Part shown: positions 16,168 to 33,062 of the stretch, piece by piece | Numbering within the stretch: the first letter of the stretch is position 1 | How the letters are laid out: each line of letters begins with the position of its first letter | IMG/VR virus record: IMGVR_UViG_3300029448_007074 | Location: 1-40,230 of that record | DNA: 40,230 nt | Direction: 5' to 3' (one strand) | Source of the DNA: a virus | Notes under the pieces: generated by a model | What the model saw: the letters and a program-made list of their open reading frames with translations, nothing else | The model's database searches: none | Told to the model about the DNA's origin: nothing | Translations under genes and position numbers: made by a program

Positions 16168-17955
16168 TTAAATATATTCTGACACTTCGTCCGCCGCGTT
16201 TACACAAGTTCCTATCTTACCTGAAAATATATTGAAAATATTATCAGTTGGATTTTCAACTAATGTGGGCCTCGCATCATCCCTATCTCTGTTTGGTAAT
16301 ACAGTTCTAAATGTGAACATTGAACCAATGTGTTTTACCTTATCAATGTCCACAAAAAACTTTTTAGCCGATTCAATGAACTTATCTATATTAGTTATTG
16401 ATGGATTTTTAACAATACCTTTATTTAACAACTTATCAAACTTTGAATCATATTCTGGAAACTTTCCTACATTTGTACTATGAATTGCATGTACTACATT
16501 TCCCATAATGTGTAAACCCGTATCACCCAATGGATCGATACACATAAACGGACCATCCATTATAACAACACTTTTATTTTTATATTGTTTAGGTAGTTTA
16601 ATAACTGGTTTCTCACATAACTCAAATTGATAATCCTTTTGTTTATCTAATGGTAACAATTGATTTAGATTAGCGTATGTTGTATTTATCACACAATCAT
16701 CATCTAAATCAAAAACATCATAATTATTGTTTAAAACTACATTTACATTGTATTTATTTAATCTATCCCAACAAATTTTCTTTAATTTATTTGGGTCAAA
16801 TAAAAATTCTTTTACCTGTACTGTTAAACTTACAACATTTTTATGTATAAAGTCAAGCTCTTTCTCTTTATAAGGTAAATTCATTTCATTTAAAAATGTC
16901 CAATATTGTTTTGGATTAACTAAACTATCCTCTTTAGCTATACAATAATAATGTTCAACATCTCCATTAATAATAGCATCACCATATTCTTTTATAAAAC
17001 TTGCTTCTCCCCATTGAGACTGTTCTGCAGTCTCTTTACTTCTTGGATAATGATAACCTCTATGTAACCTGTATTGATTTATATAAGAAGCTGAATTAAT
17101 TATATCATTATTCTTTTCAAATAAATTTACATTGTAACCCTCTTGTGATAATTTCCAAGCTGTTGTACATCCAAATATACCAGCACCAACAACATTTACA
17201 CTTTTATAAATTCTTTTTTTAAATTCATCTATCATCTGACTTGCAAATAAAGCTCTATCTTGATTATATTCAAAACAAACACTACCCTCAAGAACCTGTT
17301 TAATCATTTTAGCTAGTGCATCTTCTGAACTTCTTTTTAAATCTATTCCTGATATAGAGTGAGTATCTTTATTTTTATCTTTTCTGTCATATAAAAATTC
17401 AACTTCTACATCATCAAATTTAGCTTTAAAATGTAATCTATTAGTTTTATCAATAACATCTATTGATTTTAATTCTTTGTCTTTTAAATAAATTTGAAGT
17501 AAATATAAATCATGATACATTAAATTATGAAAAGAAGCAGGCACATAATTTCTGTAATCACTTCTGCCATATTTTTCCCAAGTGCATTTTAATTCTTTAG
17601 GTCTATGAGAAAAAAGATGATGTATATCTATTAGTTCACTTCTATACCAAAAAACCTCATCTATAAATAATTTCACATTATGTTGTTTAGCTAATTCACA
17701 AAGTTCAAGTGATTTTTTATAAGTAGGAGTTAGTGGTTTTTCACAAAATACATTCTTACCAGCAAGTATACAATCTTTTACTATTTGATAATGAGATTGA
17801 TTTGTTGTAACTACAAATACCCAATCCACATCTTCTAATTTAGAATGATAATCATCTTTACTTGTACAGATAAATTTTACATCAGACAAGTGTTTTAATT
17901 TCTGATGAAGTATTTTACCCCAATAACCATAACCTATTAAACCAACTTTTTTCAA
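16168..17955 (-). CDS. Fusion: Gfo/Idh/MocA oxidoreductase + FAD-dependent oxidoreductase
   Basis: 595 aa in two domains. Residues 1-248: GLIGYGYWGKILHQKL dinucleotide fold, VVTTNQSHY, and the signature CEKPLTPTYKKS (71-82) of Gfo/Idh/MocA NAD(P) sugar dehydrogenases. Residues 250-595: VNVVGAGIFGCTTAW (253-267) FAD-binding motif, FEKN, then a D-amino-acid-oxidase-like or UDP-galactopyranose-mutase-like body ending in FSGKIGTCVNAADEV, a typical C-terminal FAD contact. The start is TTG at 17955, overlapping the upstream TGA (TTGA). No stop or shift separates the halves. It may pass a keto-sugar between two oxidation steps; the substrate is unknown. Confidence 0.8.
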   Translation of the reverse strand: MKKVGLIGYGYWGKILHQKLKHLSDVKFICTSKDDYHSKLEDVDWVFVVTTNQSHYQIVKDCILAGKNVFCEKPLTPTYKKSLELCELAKQHNVKLFIDEVFWYRSELIDIHHLFSHRPKELKCTWEKYGRSDYRNYVPASFHNLMYHDLYLLQIYLKDKELKSIDVIDKTNRLHFKAKFDDVEVEFLYDRKDKNKDTHSISGIDLKRSSEDALAKMIKQVLEGSVCFEYNQDRALFASQMIDEFKKRIYKSVNVVGAGIFGCTTAWKLSQEGYNVNLFEKNNDIINSASYINQYRLHRGYHYPRSKETAEQSQWGEASFIKEYGDAIINGDVEHYYCIAKEDSLVNPKQYWTFLNEMNLPYKEKELDFIHKNVVSLTVQVKEFLFDPNKLKKICWDRLNKYNVNVVLNNNYDVFDLDDDCVINTTYANLNQLLPLDKQKDYQFELCEKPVIKLPKQYKNKSVVIMDGPFMCIDPLGDTGLHIMGNVVHAIHSTNVGKFPEYDSKFDKLLNKGIVKNPSITNIDKFIESAKKFFVDIDKVKHIGSMFTFRTVLPNRDRDDARPTLVENPTDNIFNIFSGKIGTCVNAADEVSEYI

Positions 17956-18555: not shown

Positions 18556-18942
18556 TTATTTTTTACCTATAATTTTAGTTGTTGAATAATCACCCACTCT
18601 ATCAAAGAATATAAGTTTCTCAGCCCATTTTTTACCAATTACTTTTCCATCTTTCCAATCTGAGCCTATTACCATTATGTGAGGTTTTATCCATTTAATT
18701 GTACTTTCCAATTCATCTGTTGAATTAAATGGAATAACTTTATCAATGTAAATAATTGAATTTAACATAGTTATTCTATCATTTAAACAATTAATAGGTC
18801 TATCCTCTCCCTTATCTTTTTTAACTTTTTCATCAGTATCCACTCCAACAATTAATTCTTCACCAAGTGATTTAGCATACTTGAATAATTCTATATGTCC
18901 TCTATGTAAAACATCAAAACAACCATTAGTCCACACTTTCAT
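18556..18942 (-). CDS. Cytidylyltransferase-fold sugar-1-P nucleotidyltransferase (HldE C-domain-like)
   Basis: The ATG at 18942 gives a 128-aa protein starting VWTNGCFDVLHRGHIELF, with the HxGH nucleotide motif (13-16), GVDTDEKVKKDKGEDRPIN, and an ending DYSTTKII that matches the GxSTT-type C-terminal motif. This is the single-domain form of the adenylyltransferase half of HldE; glycerol-3-phosphate cytidylyltransferase is related. It overlaps the cupin by 17 nt and sits near a PfkB kinase of the HldE N-domain type, so the two halves of HldE are encoded as separate genes here. Confidence 0.85.
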   Translation of the reverse strand: MKVWTNGCFDVLHRGHIELFKYAKSLGEELIVGVDTDEKVKKDKGEDRPINCLNDRITMLNSIIYIDKVIPFNSTDELESTIKWIKPHIMVIGSDWKDGKVIGKKWAEKLIFFDRVGDYSTTKIIGKK

Positions 18943-19318
18943 TTTGACTGTCCCCTTTCCATACTCTATAACTATCTTCATCAAAATGTTCTGTTGATAC
19001 TTCAAACACCACACCATCCGTTAATGCTTCCAACTGATGTGGTTGTCCAACTCGTTGTCTAACTACATCACCTTTATTAAGAGCTACTATTTTAGTCTCA
19101 GCAGTTTCTGTATCTATCCAACGATAAATAAATTCACCCTCGTTCACATACCAAGTTTCATCTTTAATCAAATGATAGTGCATTGAAAACTTACAACCTT
19201 TTTTAAACTTCAAAAGTTTACCACAATACATTTCATTATTTTCAATAATAATTTCTTCACCCCAACCTTTTGGAACTTTACAGCCTTCACACACTTTTGG
19301 TTTGATTTTATGTCCCAT
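18926..19318 (-). CDS. Cupin-domain protein
   Basis: 130 aa. A single cupin barrel with motif 1 MHYHLIKDETWYVNEGEF (metal-binding His pair and Glu) and motif 2 around RQRVGQPHQLEAL. Cupins of this kind act as sugar-phosphate isomerases or epimerases. The ATG at 19318 overlaps the upstream TAA. Placed inside the heptose-like gene set, it could act on a sugar phosphate, but the reaction cannot be assigned. Confidence 0.8.
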   Translation of the reverse strand: MGHKIKPKVCEGCKVPKGWGEEIIIENNEMYCGKLLKFKKGCKFSMHYHLIKDETWYVNEGEFIYRWIDTETAETKIVALNKGDVVRQRVGQPHQLEALTDGVVFEVSTEHFDEDSYRVWKGDSQNESVD

Positions 19319-19608
19319 TATATTTCCTCTATCCTTTTTGTTTTGTCACATATGAATAAATCATATGATGGTTTTTTTTGTTCTTCAATTCTTGTATATT
19401 TACAACCCCAATTAGTTAGTTGATATTCAGTGAATGGTTTCCAATTCAATCCACTATGTCCACCACGAGCAGTCCAATATATTATTTCGTTTCCTTCATC
19501 GTATAATTTATTTATCTTATCTATCTGCTCTTGTCTTGGTTTTGAACTATGGTAATCAGAGTTTTTGGTATGACAAATAGTATTATCTATGTCTACATAA
19601 ATTATCAT
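19318..19608 (-). CDS. HAD-family phosphatase, capsule/heptose type
   Basis: The ATG at 19608 gives a 96-aa protein beginning IIYVDIDNTICHT (nucleophile Asp6, Asp8), then YWTARGG (motif II Thr) and ICDKTKRI near the end. Small HAD proteins with this layout are common in capsule loci, where they dephosphorylate sugar phosphates. The ATGA overlap with the kinase gene places it in the heptose-like set, in the position of GmhB functionally though not by close similarity. Confidence 0.78.
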   Translation of the reverse strand: MIIYVDIDNTICHTKNSDYHSSKPRQEQIDKINKLYDEGNEIIYWTARGGHSGLNWKPFTEYQLTNWGCKYTRIEEQKKPSYDLFICDKTKRIEEI

Positions 19609-20360
19609 ATTGTTGCTACTCCGTGTTTTTGAACTACTATTGTTGCACATTCTTGTGCATAGTTAATAGCTTTTTTTATATCATTAGTTCTTAAAAAATT
19701 TAACACAAATCCTGCGAAAAATGTATCACCTGCACCTGAATAATCTTTGATACTCTCAACTGCAGACACTGGATAAATCTCGTCTAAATACTGACAACCC
19801 TTAGAACCTTTAGTAATAATTAATTTATTTTTAAGTTTATCATAATCTATGTAATCTTTAGTTTTTTCATATTCCTTTTCGTTTATTTTTAAATAATTAA
19901 CATCATAAACCCAATTTCCTAACTTTCTTTTTGTATCTAAAAAAACATTATTATTGTGTTCTATTAAAAATTTAATATCAGTTTCATTTAAAAAACCTTT
20001 ACAATAATCAGACACAACTAATGCATCAAAATTAAAATTTTCATATGTATTTTTTTGTATTTTTAAAATAACATCACTTGGAACTCTATCTGTAGAATCA
20101 TTTTCATCAATTCGTAACATAATTGAATTTGTCTTTTCATCTACATATCTTGTTTTTTTTATATCATTTAAATTAGTTATTATCTTTACATCTGCGCCCA
20201 TTTTGTTTAAATTTTTTGAAACATTTTTAGCCATTCCACCATTTGTCGTGGTTTTAATTGGATTTAATATTGGGACTGGTGCTTCAGGACATATCCTATT
20301 ACATGTTCCATAAACAAAAACATCCGTGCAACTATCTCCAATAACTAAAATTTTATTCAT
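19605..20360 (-). CDS. PfkB-family sugar kinase (HldE N-domain-like)
   Basis: 251 aa from ATG 20360. The start KILVIGDSCTDVFVYG, the segment CNRICPEAPVPIL (20-32), NGGMAKNVSKNL and SGAGDTFFAGFVL with catalytic Asp212 match the D-glycero-D-manno-heptose-7-phosphate kinase group of PfkB kinases. It is somewhat shorter than the usual 310-residue kinase half of HldE. The kinase would phosphorylate C1 of a heptose or related sugar 7-phosphate, ahead of the phosphatase and nucleotidyltransferase encoded next to it. Confidence 0.87.
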   Translation of the reverse strand: MNKILVIGDSCTDVFVYGTCNRICPEAPVPILNPIKTTTNGGMAKNVSKNLNKMGADVKIITNLNDIKKTRYVDEKTNSIMLRIDENDSTDRVPSDVILKIQKNTYENFNFDALVVSDYCKGFLNETDIKFLIEHNNNVFLDTKRKLGNWVYDVNYLKINEKEYEKTKDYIDYDKLKNKLIITKGSKGCQYLDEIYPVSAVESIKDYSGAGDTFFAGFVLNFLRTNDIKKAINYAQECATIVVQKHGVATI

Positions 20361-20763
20361 CCCAACTAATCTCCCAATCTTTAAACTCATCAGCTATACA
20401 ATCAATCTTATAATCTTTTCTACCACCAATAGAAGATTGAATTATATTTTTAGAAGTGTTTCTGATACCATTTAATCCGTGAGTTAGTAAAAGATTCTCT
20501 CCAGCATTTATACCTTTTCTAGCTTCAGACTCATTATGCCATATATGAAGATTCATTTGAGACAAAACTATAATAGCTCTAACATCTTTTCCACTTAATT
20601 TAATATTATCATCATTCAACATTAAATCTATATCATGTATAATGTCTTTTATTTCACCAGCGTACTCTTTTTTGTGCTCTGGTATGAATACTTCTTTCAA
20701 TTGTATGATTGATAATCTGTCTATAAGTTCTGCAAGCGTTGGTAAATATTTTCTTTTACTCAT
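20353..20763 (-). CDS. DUF4254-like conserved protein
   Basis: 136 aa, all helical in appearance. PTLAELIDRLSIIQLKEV near the start and HIWHNESEARKG in the middle recall the DUF4254 family, which often accompanies heptose or O-antigen genes; this is from memory of the motifs and is uncertain. No catalytic residue set is recognised. The gene overlaps the kinase by 8 nt and follows an epimerase by 9 nt, consistent with a part in the heptose-like set. Confidence 0.5.
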   Translation of the reverse strand: MSKRKYLPTLAELIDRLSIIQLKEVFIPEHKKEYAGEIKDIIHDIDLMLNDDNIKLSGKDVRAIIVLSQMNLHIWHNESEARKGINAGENLLLTHGLNGIRNTSKNIIQSSIGGRKDYKIDCIADEFKDWEISWDE

Positions 20764-21711: not shown

Positions 21712-21998
21712 ATTCTTAATCTCCCTAATAAAATATCTTTAAACATAATCCAATCAGATAACTTTGCATATAATGGATTGTTAAATGCTGCTGGTTTATT
21801 CCCTTCAAAGAAATAATGTCCACTCCATGCAAATGGATAAATTACAAATGGAATCAATGGAATTAAAAACCAATACCAATTATATAATACAAATATTGTA
21901 AATAATATCGTTACCCATTGGCCTGTAAAATGTAATAATCTACACTTTGGATGTTCGTGTAGAGTTAAATAATAATTATAATAATCACTTAACTTCAT
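21705..21998 (-). CDS. Mpo1-like (DUF962) membrane dioxygenase
   Basis: 97 aa. The pattern LHEHPKCRLLHFTGQW (His14, His16, His23), two hydrophobic membrane segments (about 28-58), and WSGHYFFEGNKPAAF (His61, Glu65) then YAKLSDWIMFKDIL match the DUF962/Mpo1 family, whose yeast member is an Fe(II) dioxygenase acting in alpha-oxidation of 2-hydroxy fatty acids. The protein is complete and sits in the inner membrane. Overlaps of 7 and 14 nt tie it to sugar genes, suggesting lipid-anchor or acyl-chain modification of the glycan, which is inference. Confidence 0.83.
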   Translation of the reverse strand: MKLSDYYNYYLTLHEHPKCRLLHFTGQWVTILFTIFVLYNWYWFLIPLIPFVIYPFAWSGHYFFEGNKPAAFNNPLYAKLSDWIMFKDILLGRLRIW

Positions 21999-23169
21999 TC
22001 AATACCTTTAATAAATTTTTTATTTTACTTTTATTCAGTGATGGGTAATTACCTATATACCAACTAAAGTTATGAACATGTTCAACATTCTTAAACTCAT
22101 TATAGTCTATATTTTTATCTCTAAAAAAAGGTTGTTTTAACTGATTTCCACCTCCTGAAAGTCCTCTTCTAAATTCTATTCCATTTTTTTTCAAAGTATT
22201 TTCTATTTTATCTCTTAATTTTAGATTTTTATTTTGCATTACCACTATGAATGCATAGTTACATTGTCCGTCTAAATTAAAATCTGTTTTGTATTTTTTC
22301 TTATCTAAACCATTAATAAAATATTTAAAATTAGCAATTCTTTTTAAATTATTATCATCTAATTTTTTTAATTGTGATAAACCCAATACTGCATTTATTT
22401 CATTACTTCTAAAGTTATGAGCTGGACCCATAAAAATAAAATCTGGATTCAAATCAGGATAATTATCTATATATTGTTGTTTCATTTTTTTATCAGTTAT
22501 TTCTCTTGTCATTCCATGTGACCTTAATGCTCTACACATTTGATAAAATTTATCATCATTTGTACAAATCATTCCACCCTCTATTGTGCTCATATGATGA
22601 GCAAAGTAAAAACTAAAGTTACTTGCAAATCCAATAGAACCTAATTTTTCTTTATTGAATGTTGCTCCATGTGATTCACAAACATCTTCTATCAATAATA
22701 TACCATTTTTTTCGCAAATATCCAAGAGTTTTTTTGATAAACCATTAATTCCTAAAACATGCGTGATAAATATAGCCCTTGTATTTTCTGTAATTTCTTT
22801 TTCCAACTTATCTAAATCAAAGGACAAATTATTAAAATTAATATCCACACATCTTAAATTAAATCCAGCAAATATAACTGAGTTTATATCAGATACCCAA
22901 GTTAATGGAGGAACTATTACATCACCACCTTGAGGATACATATATCTCAAAGCCAACATTGTTAATTCATTAGATGATGCTCCTGAATTAACAAATACAC
23001 TGTGTTTTACACCTAGCCATTCACTCCATTTCTTTTCAAATTCTTTTACTTTTTCTCCATTAGTCAATCTTGGTATTGGGTCTTGTTGTAAAAATTCTAT
23101 TATAGAATTAATGTCACCTCTATCTATATTATCTGACATAAGTGGTAATTTTAAATTTTTATTTTTCAT
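21985..23169 (-). CDS. DegT-fold sugar 3-dehydratase (ColD-like), PLP Lys replaced by His
   Basis: 394 aa of the DegT/DnrJ/EryC1/StrS fold: VNSGASSNELT, PPLTWVSDINSV, EDVCESHGAT. At the PLP-lysine position the sequence is SFYFAHHMSTIEGGM, with His191 in place of Lys. This is the hallmark of the PMP-dependent 3-dehydratases ColD and RfbH, which remove the C3 hydroxyl, rather than aminotransferases. With Gmd in the same operon, GDP-4-keto-6-deoxymannose is the natural substrate (ColD reaction). No RfbI-type iron-sulfur partner is visible, which also favours ColD. It overlaps the Cys-rich gene by 11 nt. Confidence 0.85.
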   Translation of the reverse strand: MKNKNLKLPLMSDNIDRGDINSIIEFLQQDPIPRLTNGEKVKEFEKKWSEWLGVKHSVFVNSGASSNELTMLALRYMYPQGGDVIVPPLTWVSDINSVIFAGFNLRCVDINFNNLSFDLDKLEKEITENTRAIFITHVLGINGLSKKLLDICEKNGILLIEDVCESHGATFNKEKLGSIGFASNFSFYFAHHMSTIEGGMICTNDDKFYQMCRALRSHGMTREITDKKMKQQYIDNYPDLNPDFIFMGPAHNFRSNEINAVLGLSQLKKLDDNNLKRIANFKYFINGLDKKKYKTDFNLDGQCNYAFIVVMQNKNLKLRDKIENTLKKNGIEFRRGLSGGGNQLKQPFFRDKNIDYNEFKNVEHVHNFSWYIGNYPSLNKSKIKNLLKVLNEVK

Positions 23170-25048: not shown

Positions 25049-25778
25049 AACCAACCCCCTTTGGTTTAAATTCTTCTGGTCTTCCATCTATGATAAGTTC
25101 ACCTTTATTTTTACCATTAACATACTCATTATATATCTGTTCTGCTACTAATTTTGGTTCAAGACCATATGTGTATTCTTTCACTGTTTTTATTCTTGTT
25201 GGGTAAACATTAATAACTTTGATTCCATCTTCTTCAGCTTCAATTCTTAAACTTTTAGAAAATCCTTTTAATCCCCACTTGGTTGCAGAATGCACACTTC
25301 TAAACTTTTTAGGTTCTTTACCTACTATTGAATTTATATTTATAATTGAACCATAACCTTGTTTTTTAAATAAAGGATAAATTTTCTGTGATAAAAGGAT
25401 TGGTGATATTAAATTTGTATTGAGACTCTCTGCTATTTGTTCATATTTCATATCATTTAAAGGAAGACCATAACATGGTATTGCTGCATTATTTACCAAT
25501 ACACTTATTTTATTTTCACTAATTTTAGATAATTGAGTAATAAAATTTGAGTCTGTTAAATCTCCAACAATATCATAAACTTTAATATTATTTTTTTCTA
25601 AAAGTTTTTTAGTTTTTTTAACTTTATTAACATCTCTACCATGTAATATTATATCATACCCATAATCTGCAAAGGTTTGTGCGATAGCCTTACCCAACCC
25701 CTTACTCGATGCTGTAACAAGAACACACTTATTGGTATCTTGCATCATCTCCGAATGGTTCACTTTCGATTTTTTCAT
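25035..25778 (-). CDS. Short-chain dehydrogenase with Tyr-to-His at active site
   Basis: 247 aa. The cofactor loop LVTASSKGLGKAIA, LVNNAAIP, INSIVG (Ser150) and TKWGLKGFSKSL define a classical SDR. Catalytic Tyr is replaced by His163 in the spacing Ser150-x12-His163-x3-Lys167, a one-base TAT/CAT change. The enzyme may be altered or inactive, or the base may be an error. Starts at ATG 25778 or, less likely, the adjacent ATGs at 25748/25745; it overlaps the radical SAM gene. Confidence 0.82.
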   Translation of the reverse strand: MKKSKVNHSEMMQDTNKCVLVTASSKGLGKAIAQTFADYGYDIILHGRDVNKVKKTKKLLEKNNIKVYDIVGDLTDSNFITQLSKISENKISVLVNNAAIPCYGLPLNDMKYEQIAESLNTNLISPILLSQKIYPLFKKQGYGSIININSIVGKEPKKFRSVHSATKWGLKGFSKSLRIEAEEDGIKVINVYPTRIKTVKEYTYGLEPKLVAEQIYNEYVNGKNKGELIIDGRPEEFKPKGVGYDNK

Positions 25779-27783
25779 AGTTTATAACCTTATTTTTTAA
25801 TTTGTTAGATTTTACAGGTTTACAATCGTAAAGATAAGCACCTTTTTTATTAGACCACCAAACCACTTTTGTACACCAATCTTCCCAAGAATCCCAAGTT
25901 TCTGTAGTTCTATCGACAGAATACTTAAAATTACCTTTTGTTAATAATTTTTCTTTACCTAATAATGTTGAATTATATACATCCCATATATTATGTTTTA
26001 GTTTTATTTCTAAATTTTTAGTTTGATTAGGTAATTTAATTAATGATTTATTTAAATTTATAGCTTCTGATATTACCGATTCATAATTTTTAATTCCTTC
26101 TTTTTCAAAAATTTCAAATAAAATATCTTTTGCATCTTCATAAAAATCTTCAATTTTACCCTCAGTAACTGCTCTTATGAATGCTAATTCATCAGGCGGC
26201 CACCAAATGTTTAACCATTTTTTTGAACTTACAAATTCAGGACCACCACTTTGCATATTTCGTGCGTGTTTATAAAAATCTTTAAATAAATCAGATAATG
26301 CTCCTGTTTTTGATTTTTTTTCAATAACAAATTTATCAAAAATATCTTTATAATCTATACCATAAACTGAATTTGCTATTATAATTGGTATTTGAAATAA
26401 TTTATTAAAATGTAAAAACCCAACTATATATCCAAAAGTTCGTGTTTTAACCCAATCTTCACCTGGCATAGATTTTGTACCAACCACCATATGTTGAGTT
26501 TCATAAATATCATCAATCCACTCTCCTAAAGCTCCATGTATATTTATAATATCATTTTCAATTATGTCTAATTCATATTTTTCTATGTATTCAGGATTTC
26601 CCATATCTGTATTTGGTAAGATACTTAAATTATTAAATTGTATTCTGTTATGTTGACCCATACTTATTAACTTAGAAACTCCTTTAGTAAAACTTTCATA
26701 AGTTTCTTCAGGTAATCCTAATATTATATCTGAAAATGTTTTTATTCCATCCTCCATAAATTTAGCTTGTAAATCATAAAAAACTTCTAATTTTATATTT
26801 GACCTTTTAATCGCTTTTAAAGTATCTGGATCGAGAGATTGAAATGCGATTAAAGCACCTTTACTTAATCCACTATCTGACAGTCTTTTTTGTACTTGAT
26901 AAGATACTTTATTTGAATTTTTAGTATTTTGAACTGATAAAGCATGTGGATAACCGTGTTTATCTTTATTTTCTATAAACTTTTCTACAATTGGTAAATC
27001 TCTATCCTTATACATACCAAAGTTAGCATCACAAGTAAAAATAAACTCTATTTTATTTTTTGTAAACCAATCAATTTCTTCGTATAATCTTCCTTCTAAA
27101 TCATATTTAGATACTTTTTTCTTAAATCCAACACCCCAATCACAAAATGTACAAGAAAAAGGACACCCTCTATTTGTCTCCCATAACCCAATCCAACTTT
27201 CATCTGGATTATCTTTTATTAAATTATCAAAATAACCCTCAATAAATGGTGATGGTATTTCATTCATATCTTTTATTCTCTCTGCCTGTAAAGTTGTTAT
27301 TAATTTATCACCATCTCTATAAATTAAAGATTCAACTTTGTCCCAAGTTTTTTTAGGATAATTTTCTAAAAAATCTGTAAAGACTCTTTCGCCCTCACCC
27401 ACTGAAGCTATGTCAATGTAAGTATTGTCATTCATATATTTTTCTATATACTCTGGTCTTTCTGGAATATGACAACCACCAACTATTATTAATATATTTG
27501 GATTTACTTTTTTTAATTCTTTAGCAATTCTCATTGATATATTGTTATTCCATACATAAACACTAAATGCAACTATATCACAATCTTTATATTGTTCTAC
27601 TGCATCTTTTACTTTAACTCTTTTATATATTGGATTTAAAAATTCAAAATCTTTAAAGTTCTTACAATGAAATTCTGCATATGATACCAAAAAACCAAGA
27701 GATAATGGCAAATAATTTTGACCAGAAAAACTATTATTGACTTGAACCATTCCGACTTTTATTTTATTTTTCATTTTGTACAT
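25729..27783 (-). CDS. B12-binding-domain radical SAM enzyme
   Basis: 684 aa. The N-terminal half is a B12-binding-like Rossmann domain (IVGGCHIPERPEY, SVGEGERVF; no DxHxxG cobalamin-ligand motif is visible). NRGCPFSCTFCDWG carries Cys207, Cys211 and Cys214 (CX3CX2C) for the 4Fe-4S cluster. ILGLPEETYESFTKGV is a typical SAM-barrel segment. A C-terminal 200-residue region has many Trp and aromatic residues. ATG at 27783 or 27774. Enzymes of this class do C-methylation, ring changes or epimerisation; the lack of the cobalamin ligand makes methyl transfer less certain. Confidence 0.88.
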   Translation of the reverse strand: MYKMKNKIKVGMVQVNNSFSGQNYLPLSLGFLVSYAEFHCKNFKDFEFLNPIYKRVKVKDAVEQYKDCDIVAFSVYVWNNNISMRIAKELKKVNPNILIIVGGCHIPERPEYIEKYMNDNTYIDIASVGEGERVFTDFLENYPKKTWDKVESLIYRDGDKLITTLQAERIKDMNEIPSPFIEGYFDNLIKDNPDESWIGLWETNRGCPFSCTFCDWGVGFKKKVSKYDLEGRLYEEIDWFTKNKIEFIFTCDANFGMYKDRDLPIVEKFIENKDKHGYPHALSVQNTKNSNKVSYQVQKRLSDSGLSKGALIAFQSLDPDTLKAIKRSNIKLEVFYDLQAKFMEDGIKTFSDIILGLPEETYESFTKGVSKLISMGQHNRIQFNNLSILPNTDMGNPEYIEKYELDIIENDIINIHGALGEWIDDIYETQHMVVGTKSMPGEDWVKTRTFGYIVGFLHFNKLFQIPIIIANSVYGIDYKDIFDKFVIEKKSKTGALSDLFKDFYKHARNMQSGGPEFVSSKKWLNIWWPPDELAFIRAVTEGKIEDFYEDAKDILFEIFEKEGIKNYESVISEAINLNKSLIKLPNQTKNLEIKLKHNIWDVYNSTLLGKEKLLTKGNFKYSVDRTTETWDSWEDWCTKVVWWSNKKGAYLYDCKPVKSNKLKNKVINYEKIESEPFGDDARYQ

Positions 27784-28711
27784 ACCATTTAATTAAATTA
27801 TCTATTCCATTTTCTAAAGATATTTTAGGATTAAAACCTAAAGACTTAGCTCTATCTACATTTAAAACTCTCATCTTATCTCCTGTTATCTTTGATGTAT
27901 CCCAAATTATTTCAGGCTTTTTACCACTCCTATCTATAACTATATCAATTAAATCTTTTATTGTATATCTTTCTCCACTTCCTAAATTAATTGGTTGTTC
28001 TGGTCCTGGTGATTTTTCCATAACTAACATCATACCTGCAGCTACATCTTTACTATGAATAAAATCTCTAACATTAGAACCATCACCCCAAACAACTAAT
28101 GGATTGGTATTATCTAATATTTTTTTAACTAATGATGGTACAACCATAGCACTATCAAGATTAAAATTATCATATGGACCATATGTATTAGCTGGTCTTA
28201 CAATTGATATAGCATCCCAATCATATTGTATTTTATAAGCTTGAGCTTGAAGTTCTCCCATTCTTTTTGCCCATCCTGCAAATCTATCATTATCAGATGG
28301 AAATGTTTTCCATACATCGTCTTCAAACAGTGTTTCTTGTGGTTCATAAACAGCAAGTGAACTTGTATATAAATATTTTTTAACACCACATTTATAAGCT
28401 GCTTCCATTAAATTTGTGTTAAATAATATCATAGGAACAAAATGACTAGCAGGTTTTTCTTTCATAACTTTAGGTGAACCCTTGATACATAATAAGTTAA
28501 AAACATAGTCCATACCCTCACAAACAGATAAACAATTAGAGTAATCTGTTAAATCTAATTTACTATAAGATACTCTATTTTTAAATTTAATATCAGGCTC
28601 TTTCATATCAGAAACAAAAACATCAGCTCCACTTGATATTAAGAGTTCAACTAATTGTCGCCCTATTAATCCTGCACCACCTGCTATCAAAACTTTTTTA
28701 TCTTTAAACAT
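27764..28711 (-). CDS. NAD-dependent epimerase (extended SDR) with atypical active site
   Basis: 315 aa. LIAGGAGLIGRQLVEL, TSSLAVYEP, RPANTYGPYDNFNLDSA and VWGDGSNVRDFIHSKDVA are those of extended SDR sugar epimerases. The Tyr-x3-Lys motif reads FAGWAKRMGE: Lys149 is kept but Ala145 is at the Tyr position, with Phe144 beside it. The same shift from the canonical motif occurs in the epimerase at 23329. It overlaps the radical SAM gene by 20 nt. Reaction unknown. Confidence 0.78.
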   Translation of the reverse strand: MFKDKKVLIAGGAGLIGRQLVELLISSGADVFVSDMKEPDIKFKNRVSYSKLDLTDYSNCLSVCEGMDYVFNLLCIKGSPKVMKEKPASHFVPMILFNTNLMEAAYKCGVKKYLYTSSLAVYEPQETLFEDDVWKTFPSDNDRFAGWAKRMGELQAQAYKIQYDWDAISIVRPANTYGPYDNFNLDSAMVVPSLVKKILDNTNPLVVWGDGSNVRDFIHSKDVAAGMMLVMEKSPGPEQPINLGSGERYTIKDLIDIVIDRSGKKPEIIWDTSKITGDKMRVLNVDRAKSLGFNPKISLENGIDNLIKWYVQNEK

Positions 28712-28713
28712 TT

Positions 28714-29670
28714 TTAATCCTTAATTTTTAAATTATCTGTTATATGAGTATCTGGCTTTTTATCATACTTATCATTTTTGTATTTATCATAACATTCCTG
28801 TAATGTTTCAGTTGCTTTTAAAAAACTTTTCTTTCCTATTTTAATAATTTTGTTTTTGTCTTGATATGATATATTTTTTCCCAATTTACCTGTTGTCTTT
28901 TCACCAAAGTCTTTTCTACAACCATAAGAATTTGAAGTTACCACACCAAAGTCAATTGAAACTCTTAAATTTTTTCCGTTTTTACAAGTTCTATGTAAAC
29001 AAGCGTGGTCAAATATTGTTAAATATCCAAACTTTAAATTACCAATTAGTTCAATATCCTCAAATAAATTTAATCCATCTGAATATGATTTTTGTGTATC
29101 AAAAAATTTGTCTGACATTTTACCAATAGGTTTGTTAAACTCTAAAGTTGTATTTTCATCACCCATTATACCTATCGTTGTTATAGCATCACCATTATGT
29201 CCCGGCCATGCATCTGAGTGTAGTCGTGTTGTTGCTGATGGTCTTTCATCTGTATCTAACCATCTACCATCTTGTATTCTAACTGTACATATATCAAGTG
29301 AATGTAATGTATCAAAATATTTAGTTTCTAAAACAATGTCATTAACCACACTCTGAACTTGATTATACTCTTTTATATTTTCAACTTTTGGATAAAATGC
29401 TCCACTTGGAGTTCTGTTAGGTAGATTCAAAATATCTTTCTCATAATTTAATAAAAAATTATTATCTTTAATAAATTCTTTATCTTTGTAAAATGATTTC
29501 AATGTAACAAATATATAATTTTCAACTTTATTTTTAAGTTTAGAAAATAAATCATTTTTTATTTTAATCTCTAATTGAACACCATTGTCAAAATCAACAT
29601 TACAATATTCTCTAACTTCATCATAAATTTTATTTCTCTCATCTAATATTATTTTTGTATCAACTTTCAC
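28714..29670 (-). CDS. Putative 2OG-Fe(II) oxygenase
   Basis: 318 aa from a GTG start. RLHSDAWPGH gives His151 and Asp153, CLHRT gives His226, and NLRVSIDFGVV gives Arg236, a spacing typical of 2-oxoglutarate oxygenases. The N-terminal 100 residues are Lys/Asp-rich helices and the C-terminus is basic and polar. The gene overlaps the TPP beta-subunit gene by 11 nt. A link with the TPP pair next to it is likely; the substrate is not. Confidence 0.7.
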   Translation of the reverse strand: MKVDTKIILDERNKIYDEVREYCNVDFDNGVQLEIKIKNDLFSKLKNKVENYIFVTLKSFYKDKEFIKDNNFLLNYEKDILNLPNRTPSGAFYPKVENIKEYNQVQSVVNDIVLETKYFDTLHSLDICTVRIQDGRWLDTDERPSATTRLHSDAWPGHNGDAITTIGIMGDENTTLEFNKPIGKMSDKFFDTQKSYSDGLNLFEDIELIGNLKFGYLTIFDHACLHRTCKNGKNLRVSIDFGVVTSNSYGCRKDFGEKTTGKLGKNISYQDKNKIIKIGKKSFLKATETLQECYDKYKNDKYDKKPDTHITDNLKIKD

Positions 29671-30571
29671 TAACTATATCCTTAACTTTACTAACTATTT
29701 GATTTGATATTGGTGGTAAGTTATCTCTATCAGGATGAAATCCAGCAGTTTTATGCTCTAATCCCATTGTGTAAACTTTCTTGTTTGAATCCATCATCAT
29801 TCTATGTGCAATACTACTTGCTACACCTTGTTCGTAATCATCGTCTAAAACAATACCACCATGTACTGAACTATTTAAACATTTTTTCCATTCTTCTTTA
29901 AACACAAATGGTTTTATCCATAATTGATGGATTATGCTAACCTTCAATCCTTTTTTTTCTAATTCTTTTCTAGCTTTTTCAGCTTCAAATCTTGTAATTG
30001 AGATTGGGAATAAAACAATATCTGATTCATCATATAATACATCTTTAAACTCTACAGTATTATCATAACTTCCTCTATGTTCTGATATATAATACACACT
30101 ATCATCATTTATAAATTCTTCATATGCATATTCGTATTCTTTTGGTGTCATCGGTGAAAGTATTTTAGTGCCTGGCATTCTCTGATATAGTGAGTGATGT
30201 GATGAACCCGCAACAGGACCAATTCCACCCTCCATAGCTATACTTCTTATGAAAATAGGACAAGGTATGTCCCAAATCTCTTTACTTTTAGAAGCGTAAT
30301 TAACAATCATTGGAGCATTATACCACTGAAAGCCCTGATACCTTACAACATAAATTGGTTTTTTATTAGCCAATCCAGCACCCACTACAAATCCACCATT
30401 GGCTACATCAGCAGTTGTAACTTCTATCATACCATCCTCTTCATACAATTCAGGTAAAGTTCCACCAACCCAACCAACGGCAGTTAAACATTGTCCAAAA
30501 CATAAATTATTTTTTTCTTTTAGATGACTGTATGTTATAGATTTTATTGTCTCTCTAACTGACTTCCCCAT
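29660..30571 (-). CDS. TPP enzyme beta subunit (E1 beta / transketolase C-half-like)
   Basis: 303 aa. TTADVANGGFVVGAGLANKKPIY, SSHHSLYQRMPGTKILSPMTPKE (125-147, broken here for brevity at HHSLYQ...) and a C-terminal swivelling-domain segment resemble E1 beta subunits and the second half of transketolase. An AGGAG site sits 5 nt before the ATG at 30571, which overlaps the alpha gene by 28 nt. No E2 or E3 gene is nearby, so an ordinary 2-oxoacid dehydrogenase complex is unlikely. Together with the alpha subunit it may transfer a two-carbon unit. Confidence 0.82.
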   Translation of the reverse strand: MGKSVRETIKSITYSHLKEKNNLCFGQCLTAVGWVGGTLPELYEEDGMIEVTTADVANGGFVVGAGLANKKPIYVVRYQGFQWYNAPMIVNYASKSKEIWDIPCPIFIRSIAMEGGIGPVAGSSHHSLYQRMPGTKILSPMTPKEYEYAYEEFINDDSVYYISEHRGSYDNTVEFKDVLYDESDIVLFPISITRFEAEKARKELEKKGLKVSIIHQLWIKPFVFKEEWKKCLNSSVHGGIVLDDDYEQGVASSIAHRMMMDSNKKVYTMGLEHKTAGFHPDRDNLPPISNQIVSKVKDIVSES

Positions 30572-31380
30572 AGCTCCTCTACTAATTTTTTATTTCCTAA
30601 ATCTATTATTTGTGCTTTTCTACCTAACTTTAAAAGTTCATCTTCATATCTATTAAATATATTTTCATTATCACAACCAGGACCGGCATGCCAATATCTA
30701 CGATTGGTATTAATATTTAGTAACATTGGTTCTTCAAAAACATTCTTCATATGTTTTTTAATCACTGATGGGTTATCAGATATGTTGTATGAGTGTTTCA
30801 TACCAAATCCCTTTGCAACATCATGCATTTCCCAACTTCGTCTAACTTTTTTTTCTGTAAGTATTGATAAATTGTTATCCTCTACAACAAACAATATTGG
30901 TAATTTCTTTGTAACTGCCCAACCAATAGCACTCAATGAATAATCTTCTTCTGCTGCAGAATCTCCAACAAATACAATTGTTGGTTTTCTTGTAGCAAAA
31001 CAGTGTCCAACTCCAATTGGAACTTGACTACCCATCAAACCATCATGACCATAAATTTTTTTCTCTTTACATTGAACAGATGCAGAACCACCCATACCAT
31101 TAGCACAACCACTTTCTCTTCCAAGTAACTCATCTACCAACTCTATTGGTTTTCCCCCAAAAGAAAGATAAGTAGAATGTCCTCTATGTTGAATAAAAAT
31201 ACTTGGTTCTATACCCTTGTTTTCCATAACTTGAGCTATTGTAGCTGAAATAAACTCCTGACCTGATGATAAATAGGCAGGAAACTTTATTTGTTTATTT
31301 TGCATTTGTTTAAATGTTTCTTCCTCAAAGTGATGAGATAAAGAAGCTCTATTAAATACTTTTAATCTAAAATCTTTCAC
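30544..31380 (-). CDS. TPP enzyme alpha subunit (E1 alpha / transketolase N-half-like)
   Basis: 278 aa starting at GTG 31380 (GTGA overlap with the HAD gene). QHRGHSTYLSFGG, CANGMGGSASV, FVGDSAAEEDYSLSA (TPP motif begins GD at 139-140) and VEDNNLSI (Asn170) are the diphosphate and magnesium-binding pattern. The length is short compared with the usual 330-370 aa. It pairs with the beta subunit encoded immediately downstream. Expected to form a heterotetramer in the cytoplasm. Confidence 0.85.
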   Translation of the reverse strand: MKDFRLKVFNRASLSHHFEEETFKQMQNKQIKFPAYLSSGQEFISATIAQVMENKGIEPSIFIQHRGHSTYLSFGGKPIELVDELLGRESGCANGMGGSASVQCKEKKIYGHDGLMGSQVPIGVGHCFATRKPTIVFVGDSAAEEDYSLSAIGWAVTKKLPILFVVEDNNLSILTEKKVRRSWEMHDVAKGFGMKHSYNISDNPSVIKKHMKNVFEEPMLLNINTNRRYWHAGPGCDNENIFNRYEDELLKLGRKAQIIDLGNKKLVEELWGSQLERQ

Positions 31381-31871
31381 AATAAATCATCCCAATTTTT
31401 AAATTCTTTTCTATCAATAACCACTACATCAGATATTTTTCTAGCTTCTTCTAAATCTTTATCCATATCATCAAAAAATACACACTTACCTATTTCAGAT
31501 AAATGATTAGCTTTAATATCTGTTTTATATAACATAAGTTTAATATACGAAAAATAATCATATATTCCAAGCTTTTTTAATAATAAAATAGATGGCTGCT
31601 TTTCATATTCAAGATTAAAAACACCACCTCTTGAAATAAAACCAACTTTATTACCATTTGAATTTAAATATTTTAAGACTGAACGAATACCAGGTTGTAA
31701 AATACACTCAGATTCACAATCATCTTTGACAGAATCTTCATCTAGCTTTACTAATGGTTGTATCATTTGTTTAGCCCATATTGGTTCACCTCCTTTAGTA
31801 AATGTGTCAAATACAGTTCTATCCAAATCAAACATAAAAATGTCATATTCTTTACTCAATTTTTTAATCAT
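31377..31871 (-). CDS. HAD-superfamily phosphatase
   Basis: 164 aa. MFDLDRTVFDT (Asp15, Asp17), FISRGG (motif II Ser), a central Lys and FFDDMDKDLEEA (motif IV) form a complete HAD active site. It overlaps the TPP alpha gene (GTGA) and the cupin gene by 8 nt. It probably acts on a sugar phosphate in the same pathway; specificity not readable. Confidence 0.8.
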   Translation of the reverse strand: MIKKLSKEYDIFMFDLDRTVFDTFTKGGEPIWAKQMIQPLVKLDEDSVKDDCESECILQPGIRSVLKYLNSNGNKVGFISRGGVFNLEYEKQPSILLLKKLGIYDYFSYIKLMLYKTDIKANHLSEIGKCVFFDDMDKDLEEARKISDVVVIDRKEFKNWDDLL

Positions 31872-32526
31872 TACTTTTCCTTATTGTCATAAACATAGTA
31901 TTTTTGTCTATGTTGGGAAATAACTTAATTAATTTTTTAATTATTTTACCAGAAACAATATCTCCAGCTTGAACAACCCAAAATTTCTCATCAGTTAATA
32001 TCCCACCATCCAAAAACATAATATTCTCATTGTCTTTTTTTTGATTTAAAATATCAATATTATTAATTTTTTCAACTTTGATATTACAATTAGCAAATTT
32101 GTATTCTGAATTTTTATCTTCTATCCAAAGACAATCTTCTTGTTTAGGTGTTTCAAAAGTACTATCTTCATATGGTTTACCTTCTCTACCATATTTATCT
32201 TCTAACCTAACTAAATCGTGCTTATCAACAGGTGTTTCTATTTCAAAAACAAATGCACCATTCTCTGATATAGCTTTTGTGGAATGAAATAAACCTTTTC
32301 TAATCATTGTTTTGGACACGGGTTTTAATTTATTAGAGTTTCCTAAAAATGAAACTTCAGCTTCACCATCTAAAAGAATTAAACCAGTAGTTTTATTTGG
32401 ATGACAATGCATTGATGTTTGTTGGCCTTCAGCAATATATAAGAACCAAAGACCAACTTTATCATTTTCATATGCCAAATACTCATAACCCCACGGCTTT
32501 TTTACGATAGTTTTATCGTATGACAT
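31864..32526 (-). CDS. Cupin protein, mannose-6-P-isomerase-like
   Basis: 220 aa. KKPWGYEYLAYEND followed by TSMHCHPNKTTGLILLDG (metal-binding His pair) resembles the cupin domain of type II mannose-6-phosphate isomerase and related capsule enzymes. A C-terminal 90-residue part looks like a degenerate second domain. Overlap with the HAD gene supports co-translation. Exact reaction unknown. Confidence 0.78.
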   Translation of the reverse strand: MSYDKTIVKKPWGYEYLAYENDKVGLWFLYIAEGQQTSMHCHPNKTTGLILLDGEAEVSFLGNSNKLKPVSKTMIRKGLFHSTKAISENGAFVFEIETPVDKHDLVRLEDKYGREGKPYEDSTFETPKQEDCLWIEDKNSEYKFANCNIKVEKINNIDILNQKKDNENIMFLDGGILTDEKFWVVQAGDIVSGKIIKKLIKLFPNIDKNTMFMTIRKSND

Positions 32527-32528
32527 AA

Positions 32529-33062
32529 TTAATTCCTTGCGTTGTAAATATCAAATGCAGCTAACATCCATTGTCCCATCCACTTATAATGTGGACAAGT
32601 AACAAGGTTGTTTGACACAACTGCTGGAGCATCTACAAAATTACCACCTGAATTAATTAAATCATCTTTAATACTATAATAACCTGAAACATTACGGCCC
32701 TCTGTTATCTTTGCAGATATTAACATTTGTCCACCGTGACATATACATGCTATAGTTTTATCTTTATCGTTCCAATCACTAATAAAATCTAAAACTTGTT
32801 GTTCTTGTCTTAGTTTTTCTAATGATTTAACACCACCTGGAATAATCAATAAATCATACTCATTCATTATACTATCATAATCAGTATGTAATTCATCAAC
32901 CGTTCGTGTACTTTCCATATAAGTTCCAAGAATACCAAAGATTTTTCCTTTGACATTTGACATAATGTCAACTTCAAAACCTTCTTCTAAAACTCTATAA
33001 TATGGATAAATAACTTCGTGGTCTTGATACTTTTCCCAAGTAACTATTAGTGCTTTTTTCAT
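32529..33062 (-). CDS. DJ-1/PfpI-family protein
   Basis: 177 aa. LLIIPGGVKSLEKL and IACICHGGQMLISA, where Cys108-His109 forms the nucleophile elbow, are those of the DJ-1/PfpI superfamily (glyoxalase III, proteases, chaperones). ATG at 33062. It lies 11 nt from the RmlC-like gene and 2 nt from the cupin gene. Removal of reactive dicarbonyls produced by the pathway is a possible role. Confidence 0.85.
   Translation of the reverse strand: MKKALIVTWEKYQDHEVIYPYYRVLEEGFEVDIMSNVKGKIFGILGTYMESTRTVDELHTDYDSIMNEYDLLIIPGGVKSLEKLRQEQQVLDFISDWNDKDKTIACICHGGQMLISAKITEGRNVSGYYSIKDDLINSGGNFVDAPAVVSNNLVTCPHYKWMGQWMLAAFDIYNARN

Follow-up and report, generated by a model that had tools for sequence, protein, structure and literature searches.

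The E1-like alpha and beta subunits encoded by the viral DNA described here probably make up a stand-alone, E2-independent, ThDP-dependent carbon-carbon ligase (or lyase) for an unusual surface-glycan monosaccharide, and the phage carries the pair in the same cassette as bacteria. More tentatively, the pair may belong to an undescribed E1-derived ThDP carboligase subfamily in which Asp replaces a near-universal catalytic Glu. It would act together with a DJ-1/PfpI protein, a cupin and a phosphatase dedicated to it, and phages, SAR11-type bacteria and candidate-phyla bacteria would have in common its pathway to a new sugar, either branched or high-carbon.

The alpha/beta pair and its operon

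The window, that is, the whole stretch of DNA analysed, is a 40,230-base virus contig (IMGVR_UViG_3300029448_007074; completeness unstated) with a GC content of 29%. Its genes are almost all encoded on the minus strand, and the majority form a glycan-synthesis cluster (Table 1). Overlaps of 28 nt (alpha/beta), 4 nt (HAD/alpha), 8 nt (cupin/HAD) and 11 nt (beta/oxygenase) indicate a tightly packed operon, in which the HAD protein, the cupin, the DJ-1/PfpI protein and an RmlC-like epimerase lie 5' of alpha. The putative oxygenase, an SDR resembling GDP-fucose synthase and a B12-binding radical SAM protein lie 3' of beta.

Table 1. Positions of the pair, its cassette and other glycan genes in the window
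Feature	Position	Strand	Evidence
E1 alpha-like subunit, ThDP diphosphate-binding domain (GDS...EDNN)	30544..31380	-	PF00676, AF2 model, 32-sequence alignment
E1 beta-like subunit, pyrimidine-binding and C-terminal transketolase domains	29660..30571	-	PF02779, AF2 model, homologues
Beta Asp55 codon (column of the catalytic Glu in E1 enzymes)	30407..30409	-	alignment
HAD-superfamily phosphatase, cassette member	31377..31871	-	MDP-1 1.2e-4, Acid_PPase 1.3e-4
Metal cupin, GMP_PMI / phosphomannose-isomerase-like, cassette member	31864..32526	-	homologue GMP_PMI matches, invariant His
DJ-1/PfpI protein, cassette member	32529..33062	-	PF01965 2.2e-33
Putative Fe(II)/2OG oxygenase	28714..29670	-	residues invariant in 20 homologues
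SDR related to GDP-L-fucose synthase	27764..28711	-	NF047922 3e-45, under model cut-off
DegT-family sugar aminotransferase, same glycan operon	21985..23169	-	PF01041 2.6e-66
PfkB kinase, HldE1-like, sugar-1-kinase candidate	19605..20390	-	PF00294 4.1e-23
Cytidylyltransferase-like nucleotidyltransferase, HldE2-like	18556..19017	-	PF01467 2.9e-19

The alpha protein (278 aa, GTG start) matches PF00676 at 7.7e-19, and the beta protein (303 aa) matches Transket_pyr (PF02779) at 2.5e-10 together with a weak C-terminal transketolase domain. AlphaFold models built from the family alignment reached a mean pLDDT of 90.9 for alpha and 84.8 for beta. When these were compared with the PDB using Foldseek, the best match of alpha was human E1p alpha (E 8e-16) and the best matches of beta were PDH E1 beta chains (E 1e-17), with transketolase and DXS ranking lower. 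Sequence profiles agree with an E1 (2-oxoacid dehydrogenase) assignment, and alpha and beta have an E1 fold and E1 ancestry. A split transketolase or DXS was considered and rejected, since alpha consists of PF00676 and TPP_enzyme_C with no match to the transketolase-type N-terminal domain PF00456, and the closest solved folds are those of E1. An overlapping E1 alpha/beta pair within a sugar operon, as the sequence-only reading had described it, is thus confirmed by profile matches, gene overlap and fold.

That reading had also held that the pair comes without an E2, and this is borne out for the E2 domain. No E2 catalytic domain was found in the 40 kb record, and PF00198 was present in none of 21 viral records and absent from 7 of the 11 carrier bacterial genomes searched (completeness of the records and genomes unstated). 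The HAD phosphatase placed 5' of alpha likewise holds up, on a weak MDP-1/Acid_PPase match (~1e-4), an intact FDLD motif and homologues at the same place elsewhere. The proposed coupling to an oxygenase stands only in part: the gene does adjoin beta in the window, but oxygenase-like genes recur near the pair in only 12/37 viral and 7/47 bacterial loci. The near-constant partners are the DJ-1/PfpI protein and the cupin, both missing from the earlier reading. The putative oxygenase itself has H151-x-D153, H226 and R236 invariant in 20 homologues, a set corresponding to the HxD...H facial triad and 2OG-binding Arg that Fe(II)/2OG enzymes should have; it matched no Pfam family, no PDB sequence and no meaningful NCBIfam model.

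Several other window genes are recorded here in their own right. The radical SAM protein (25729-27783) is closest to KedN5-type C-methyltransferases (2.7e-76, under the model cut-off), and its relatives recur by the cassette in some bacterial loci. At 18556-20390 the two halves of a split HldE-like pair, PfkB kinase and cytidylyltransferase, flank a second cupin and a small HAD-like ORF, and no GmhA-like isomerase was recognised in the window. A single ORF (16168-17955) joins a Gfo/Idh/MocA-type dehydrogenase to an FAD-dependent (DAO-like) oxidoreductase, and a 591-aa protein (341-2116) with a weak GmrSD_N match (6.1e-7, under cut-off) and a DGQHR motif is possibly a ParB/DGQHR-type protein.

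Active-site residues and phylogeny

The beta column occupied by Glu in all 19 non-family E1 betas aligned (acetoin, PDH, RenH, Azospirillum and two other types of glycan-linked E1 pair among them) holds Asp (D55) in 85/85 family members. The correspondence also holds, without gaps, when HMMER is used to align beta with PDH E1 beta of solved structure. The Glu concerned, Glu59 in human E1 beta, is the established catalytic residue and contacts the ThDP pyrimidine. Such a family-wide change is rare among ThDP enzymes, and the pair is as such a natural test of how the catalytic Glu position sets ThDP chemistry. Glyoxylate carboligase is the known exception to the catalytic Glu in this enzyme class (PMC6270654).

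The ThDP-binding frame is otherwise recognisable. In a 32-sequence alignment, alpha keeps the diphosphate-binding motif as GD[SA]...EDNN with D140, N169 and N170 invariant, the third position of the GDG...N(N) motif being non-Gly in most family members, and it also keeps R66, H68, R227 and H231. Invariant polar residues specific to the family, at positions where canonical E1s differ, are Q27, C28, D55, R77, Y78 and Q79 in beta, and Y36 (canonical His), Q64 (Thr) and S101 (His) in alpha. The E1 His of beta may also be lost: in that region the family reads GPVAGSSHHS against AAQHSQ in E1, in an alignment that needs a gap and where the model is poor (115-121). Asp at beta 55 may still serve, so ThDP catalysis remains compatible with these sequences; the missing catalytic Glu and E1 histidines could also point to an activity that is changed or weak.

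Both trees recover the family as monophyletic on long stems, with support of 100/100 for alpha and 99/98 for beta; long branches were flagged, which bears on the sister-group placement. The trees and the residue comparison cover PDH, acetoin and other E1 pairs, AviB and KbDH being compared by description only. Among the enzymes compared, the family groups apart from PDH and acetoin E1s, so that the clustering with true pyruvate dehydrogenases that would have spoken against the earlier proposal is not seen, and the same holds for E2 genes elsewhere, none having been found in 21/21 viral records and 7/11 bacterial genomes of unstated completeness.

These results bear directly on whether the pair is a true 2-oxoacid dehydrogenase E1, carried as a metabolic gene for the host PDH and docking onto a host E2. 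The best characterised relatives are indeed PDH E1 chains, and the pair resembles the alpha2beta2 E1 of PDH and branched-chain 2-oxoacid dehydrogenase in fold, in the two-subunit split, in PF00676 with Transket_pyr/Transketolase_C and in the ThDP-binding frame. It differs from them in identity (~20-27%), in its separate clade, in the absence of a detected E2, in the replacement of the catalytic Glu by Asp and of alpha His by Tyr (Y36) and His by Ser (S101), and in its recurrent glycan-locus context. A PDH-like metabolic gene is therefore very improbable and was rejected, on the lack of E2 in viral records and 7/11 bacteria and on the separate clade.

Homologues of beta were found in 36 viral contigs at 50-82% identity, and a profile search added 48 bacterial loci at 40-75%; common to both, the pair is not a phage oddity. 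The alpha protein searched directly in viral contigs gave no match. The bacterial carriers include SAR11 Pelagibacteraceae, SAR116, Thiothrix-like gammaproteobacteria, betaproteobacteria and Omnitrophota, as well as candidate-phyla bacteria such as Yanofskybacteria and Daviesbacteria. The distribution is patchy: with seeds included, the family occurs in 13/147 sampled Pelagibacteraceae genomes, 3/398 Pseudomonadota and 1/287 from the phylum of a Yanofskybacteria carrier. Among INPHARED phages and PLSDB plasmids no close beta relative was found, and the sole result of the alpha search in INPHARED was an Acinetobacter acetoin operon with an E2. PHROGs holds no family for alpha, beta or the oxygenase. 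Phages and abundant marine and groundwater bacteria thus share a sugar module that is exchangeable and patchily distributed; it probably serves surface glycans relevant to infection.

One Pseudomonadota beta homologue (L098; G467:C210:15825-16247) matches residues 1-142 only and has one in-frame TAG, and is perhaps a decayed copy.

The conserved gene neighbourhood

Gene neighbourhoods were counted in 37 viral loci, the window included, and 47 bacterial loci. A cupin accompanies the pair in 35/37 viral and 41/47 bacterial loci and a DJ-1/PfpI gene in 35/37 and 37/47, mostly within four genes of beta. GMP_PMI is matched by 22/32 cupin homologues, in which H40, H42 and H81 are invariant, and TIGR01382 by 28/28 DJ-1/PfpI homologues, in which E16 and C108 are invariant. 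Cupin-alpha fusions in four Omnitrophota loci (L076, L077, L085 and L086) and alpha-beta fusions in three Yanofskybacteria loci are true gene fusions, and caused the joining of cupin, alpha and beta in gene clustering.

Within the flanks available, a HAD of some type occurs in 26 viral and 22 bacterial loci. The HAD slot is filled from at least four sequence clusters (c31, the window type, c9, c33 and c57), and this use of several separate clusters in the same slot suggests that the reaction rather than a specific enzyme is conserved. A PfkB or GHMP kinase lies near the pair in 27 viral and 35 bacterial loci, typically PfkB in viruses (25/37 loci) and GHMP/HddA-like in bacteria, counts that have to be read against the general abundance of kinases and heptose genes in glycan loci. 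Related SDRs are nearby in 28/37 viral and 30/47 bacterial loci, and in many viral loci a DegT gene lies directly 3' of beta. The HAD, kinase and oxygenase are not constant among loci, and many of the neighbours also occur in ordinary NDP-sugar pathways, so co-location is no proof of a single pathway.

Some of these glycan loci hold further E1 pairs. In L044, L049, L051, L026 and L035 (e.g., L026:11981-12583) a second, very short pair (alpha ~201 aa, beta ~178 aa) keeps the catalytic Glu and mostly adjoins the cassette. A third beta type, b37, found at L043:524-1570 and in L068, L076, L079 and L084, also keeps Glu, is mostly accompanied by its own alpha and often lies near a GHMP kinase; some of these loci also hold the Asp family. 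The orphan E1 pair of an Azospirillum thermophilum plasmid (L038) and the b37 and b53 pairs resemble the family in lying by DegT, SDR or GHMP-kinase genes, but retain the catalytic Glu and fall outside the family in trees. Streptomyces plasmid matches examined showed no recognisable sugar-branching clusters, one of them being without annotation.

Proposed sugar chemistry and known relatives

The sequence-only reading suggested that the pair could be a new route to branched-chain sugars; the novelty of such a route is not supported, as E1-type pairs that branch sugars have already been described (AviB1/AviB2, Pau11/Pau12 and alphaKADH2). With such two-subunit relatives known, the present pair is a variant on a known theme. 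AviB1/AviB2, acting with the nonheme-iron enzyme AviO2 towards eurekanate, and Pau11/Pau12, for paulomycose, are E1-type pairs that place a two-carbon branch on a sugar (PMC4425429). Furthermore, alphaKADH2 enzymes are known for aldgamycin, kosinostatin and kibdelomycin, and KbDH-alpha/beta joins pyruvate to ketones in vitro (PMC12247030). These systems share with the window the orphan, E2-free E1-type pair in a sugar cluster, and AviB1/B2 share in addition the nonheme-iron enzyme, of which a putative example adjoins the window pair. In contrast, theirs are secondary-metabolite clusters with pyruvate as the donor, and the passages of the cited sources that treat them mention no DJ-1/cupin/HAD cassette. 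The YerE-like decarboxylases of yersiniose and erwiniose are also ThDP carboligases that branch keto-sugars in O-antigens, but they are single-chain, decarboxylase-superfamily enzymes from another ThDP superfamily.

One specific form of the general carboligase claim, opposed to a sugar-phosphate form, would have the pair work as alphaKADH2 enzymes do: pyruvate would be decarboxylated and an acetyl or hydroxyethyl unit added to a nucleotide- or glycan-linked 4-keto-deoxysugar to give a two-carbon branch, which the SDR would reduce and the oxygenase might modify. Such branching by the E1-type pairs of avilamycin and paulomycin (PMC4425429) and of aldgamycin and kibdelomycin (PMC12247030) provides precedent, the window also has epimerase, SDR, DegT and dehydratase-like genes, and the putative nonheme-iron oxygenase adjoins beta. 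We nevertheless regard this form as somewhat unlikely. The family-wide Asp for Glu and the other active-site changes, as seen against the E1 betas aligned, may speak against it, and the constant partners are DJ-1, the cupin and often a HAD rather than an oxygenase. Moreover, a phosphatase would not be expected for NDP-sugar branching.

The sugar-phosphate version of the carboligase claim is itself put forward tentatively. Chemistry at the sugar-phosphate level has a slight edge over the branching of a nucleotide-linked keto-sugar, and we lean towards it on gene content: the HAD, the cupin with its resemblance to PMI, and the sugar-1-kinases close by. A precedent for a two-component enzyme with a ketose phosphate donor, counted in support of the carboligase claim, is offered by NapB/NapD-type two-component transketolases, which take a hydroxyethyl unit from xylulose-5-phosphate (PMC7570522). 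Like the present pair, NapB/NapD is a two-component ThDP enzyme outside central metabolism, described as drawing a C2 unit from a ketose phosphate, but its recipient is an acyl carrier protein, and its setting NRPS clusters. The layout also resembles that of the GDP-heptose and lincomycin octose pathways, namely C-C ligase, isomerase, kinase, phosphatase and nucleotidyltransferase, the steps of the latter running in this order. The genes given for the lincomycin octose are transaldolase, isomerase, kinase, phosphatase and nucleotidyltransferase (PMC12945683).

As a stand-alone carboligase, alpha and beta would assemble as alpha2beta2. ThDP would attack the donor, which may be a ketose phosphate or a 2-oxo acid, and the carbanion so formed would be handed to a carbonyl group on a sugar or sugar phosphate. 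The PMI-resembling cupin may then isomerise the substrate or product, the interchangeable HAD could take off a phosphate, and DJ-1 might deal with a reactive alpha-oxoaldehyde that arises as an intermediate or by-product.

The DJ-1/PfpI protein, with Cys108 and Glu16, could also be read differently. DJ-1 is a relative of glyoxalase III, and the cassette protein matches PfpI deglycase models and, more weakly, glyoxalase III models. On this reading the pair might be a ThDP-dependent C-C lyase or decarboxylase whose product is a small glycan-decorating block (an aldehyde or acid) rather than a sugar skeleton, with DJ-1 as the dedicated partner turning an alpha-oxoaldehyde into a hydroxy acid. The PMI-like cupin and nearby sugar kinases point instead to sugar substrates and DJ-1 family annotations leave the reaction unfixed, and we consider this reading improbable. 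A literature search, narrow in its terms, found no connection between DJ-1/PfpI and clusters of this kind. The 11 carrier genomes examined each have one strong DJ-1 match, the cassette copy, which lies ~3 kb or less from alpha in nine genomes and ~11 kb away in two. Through the cassette the DJ-1/PfpI protein acquires a constant metabolic partner, and this may aid the search for the true substrate of a contested family.
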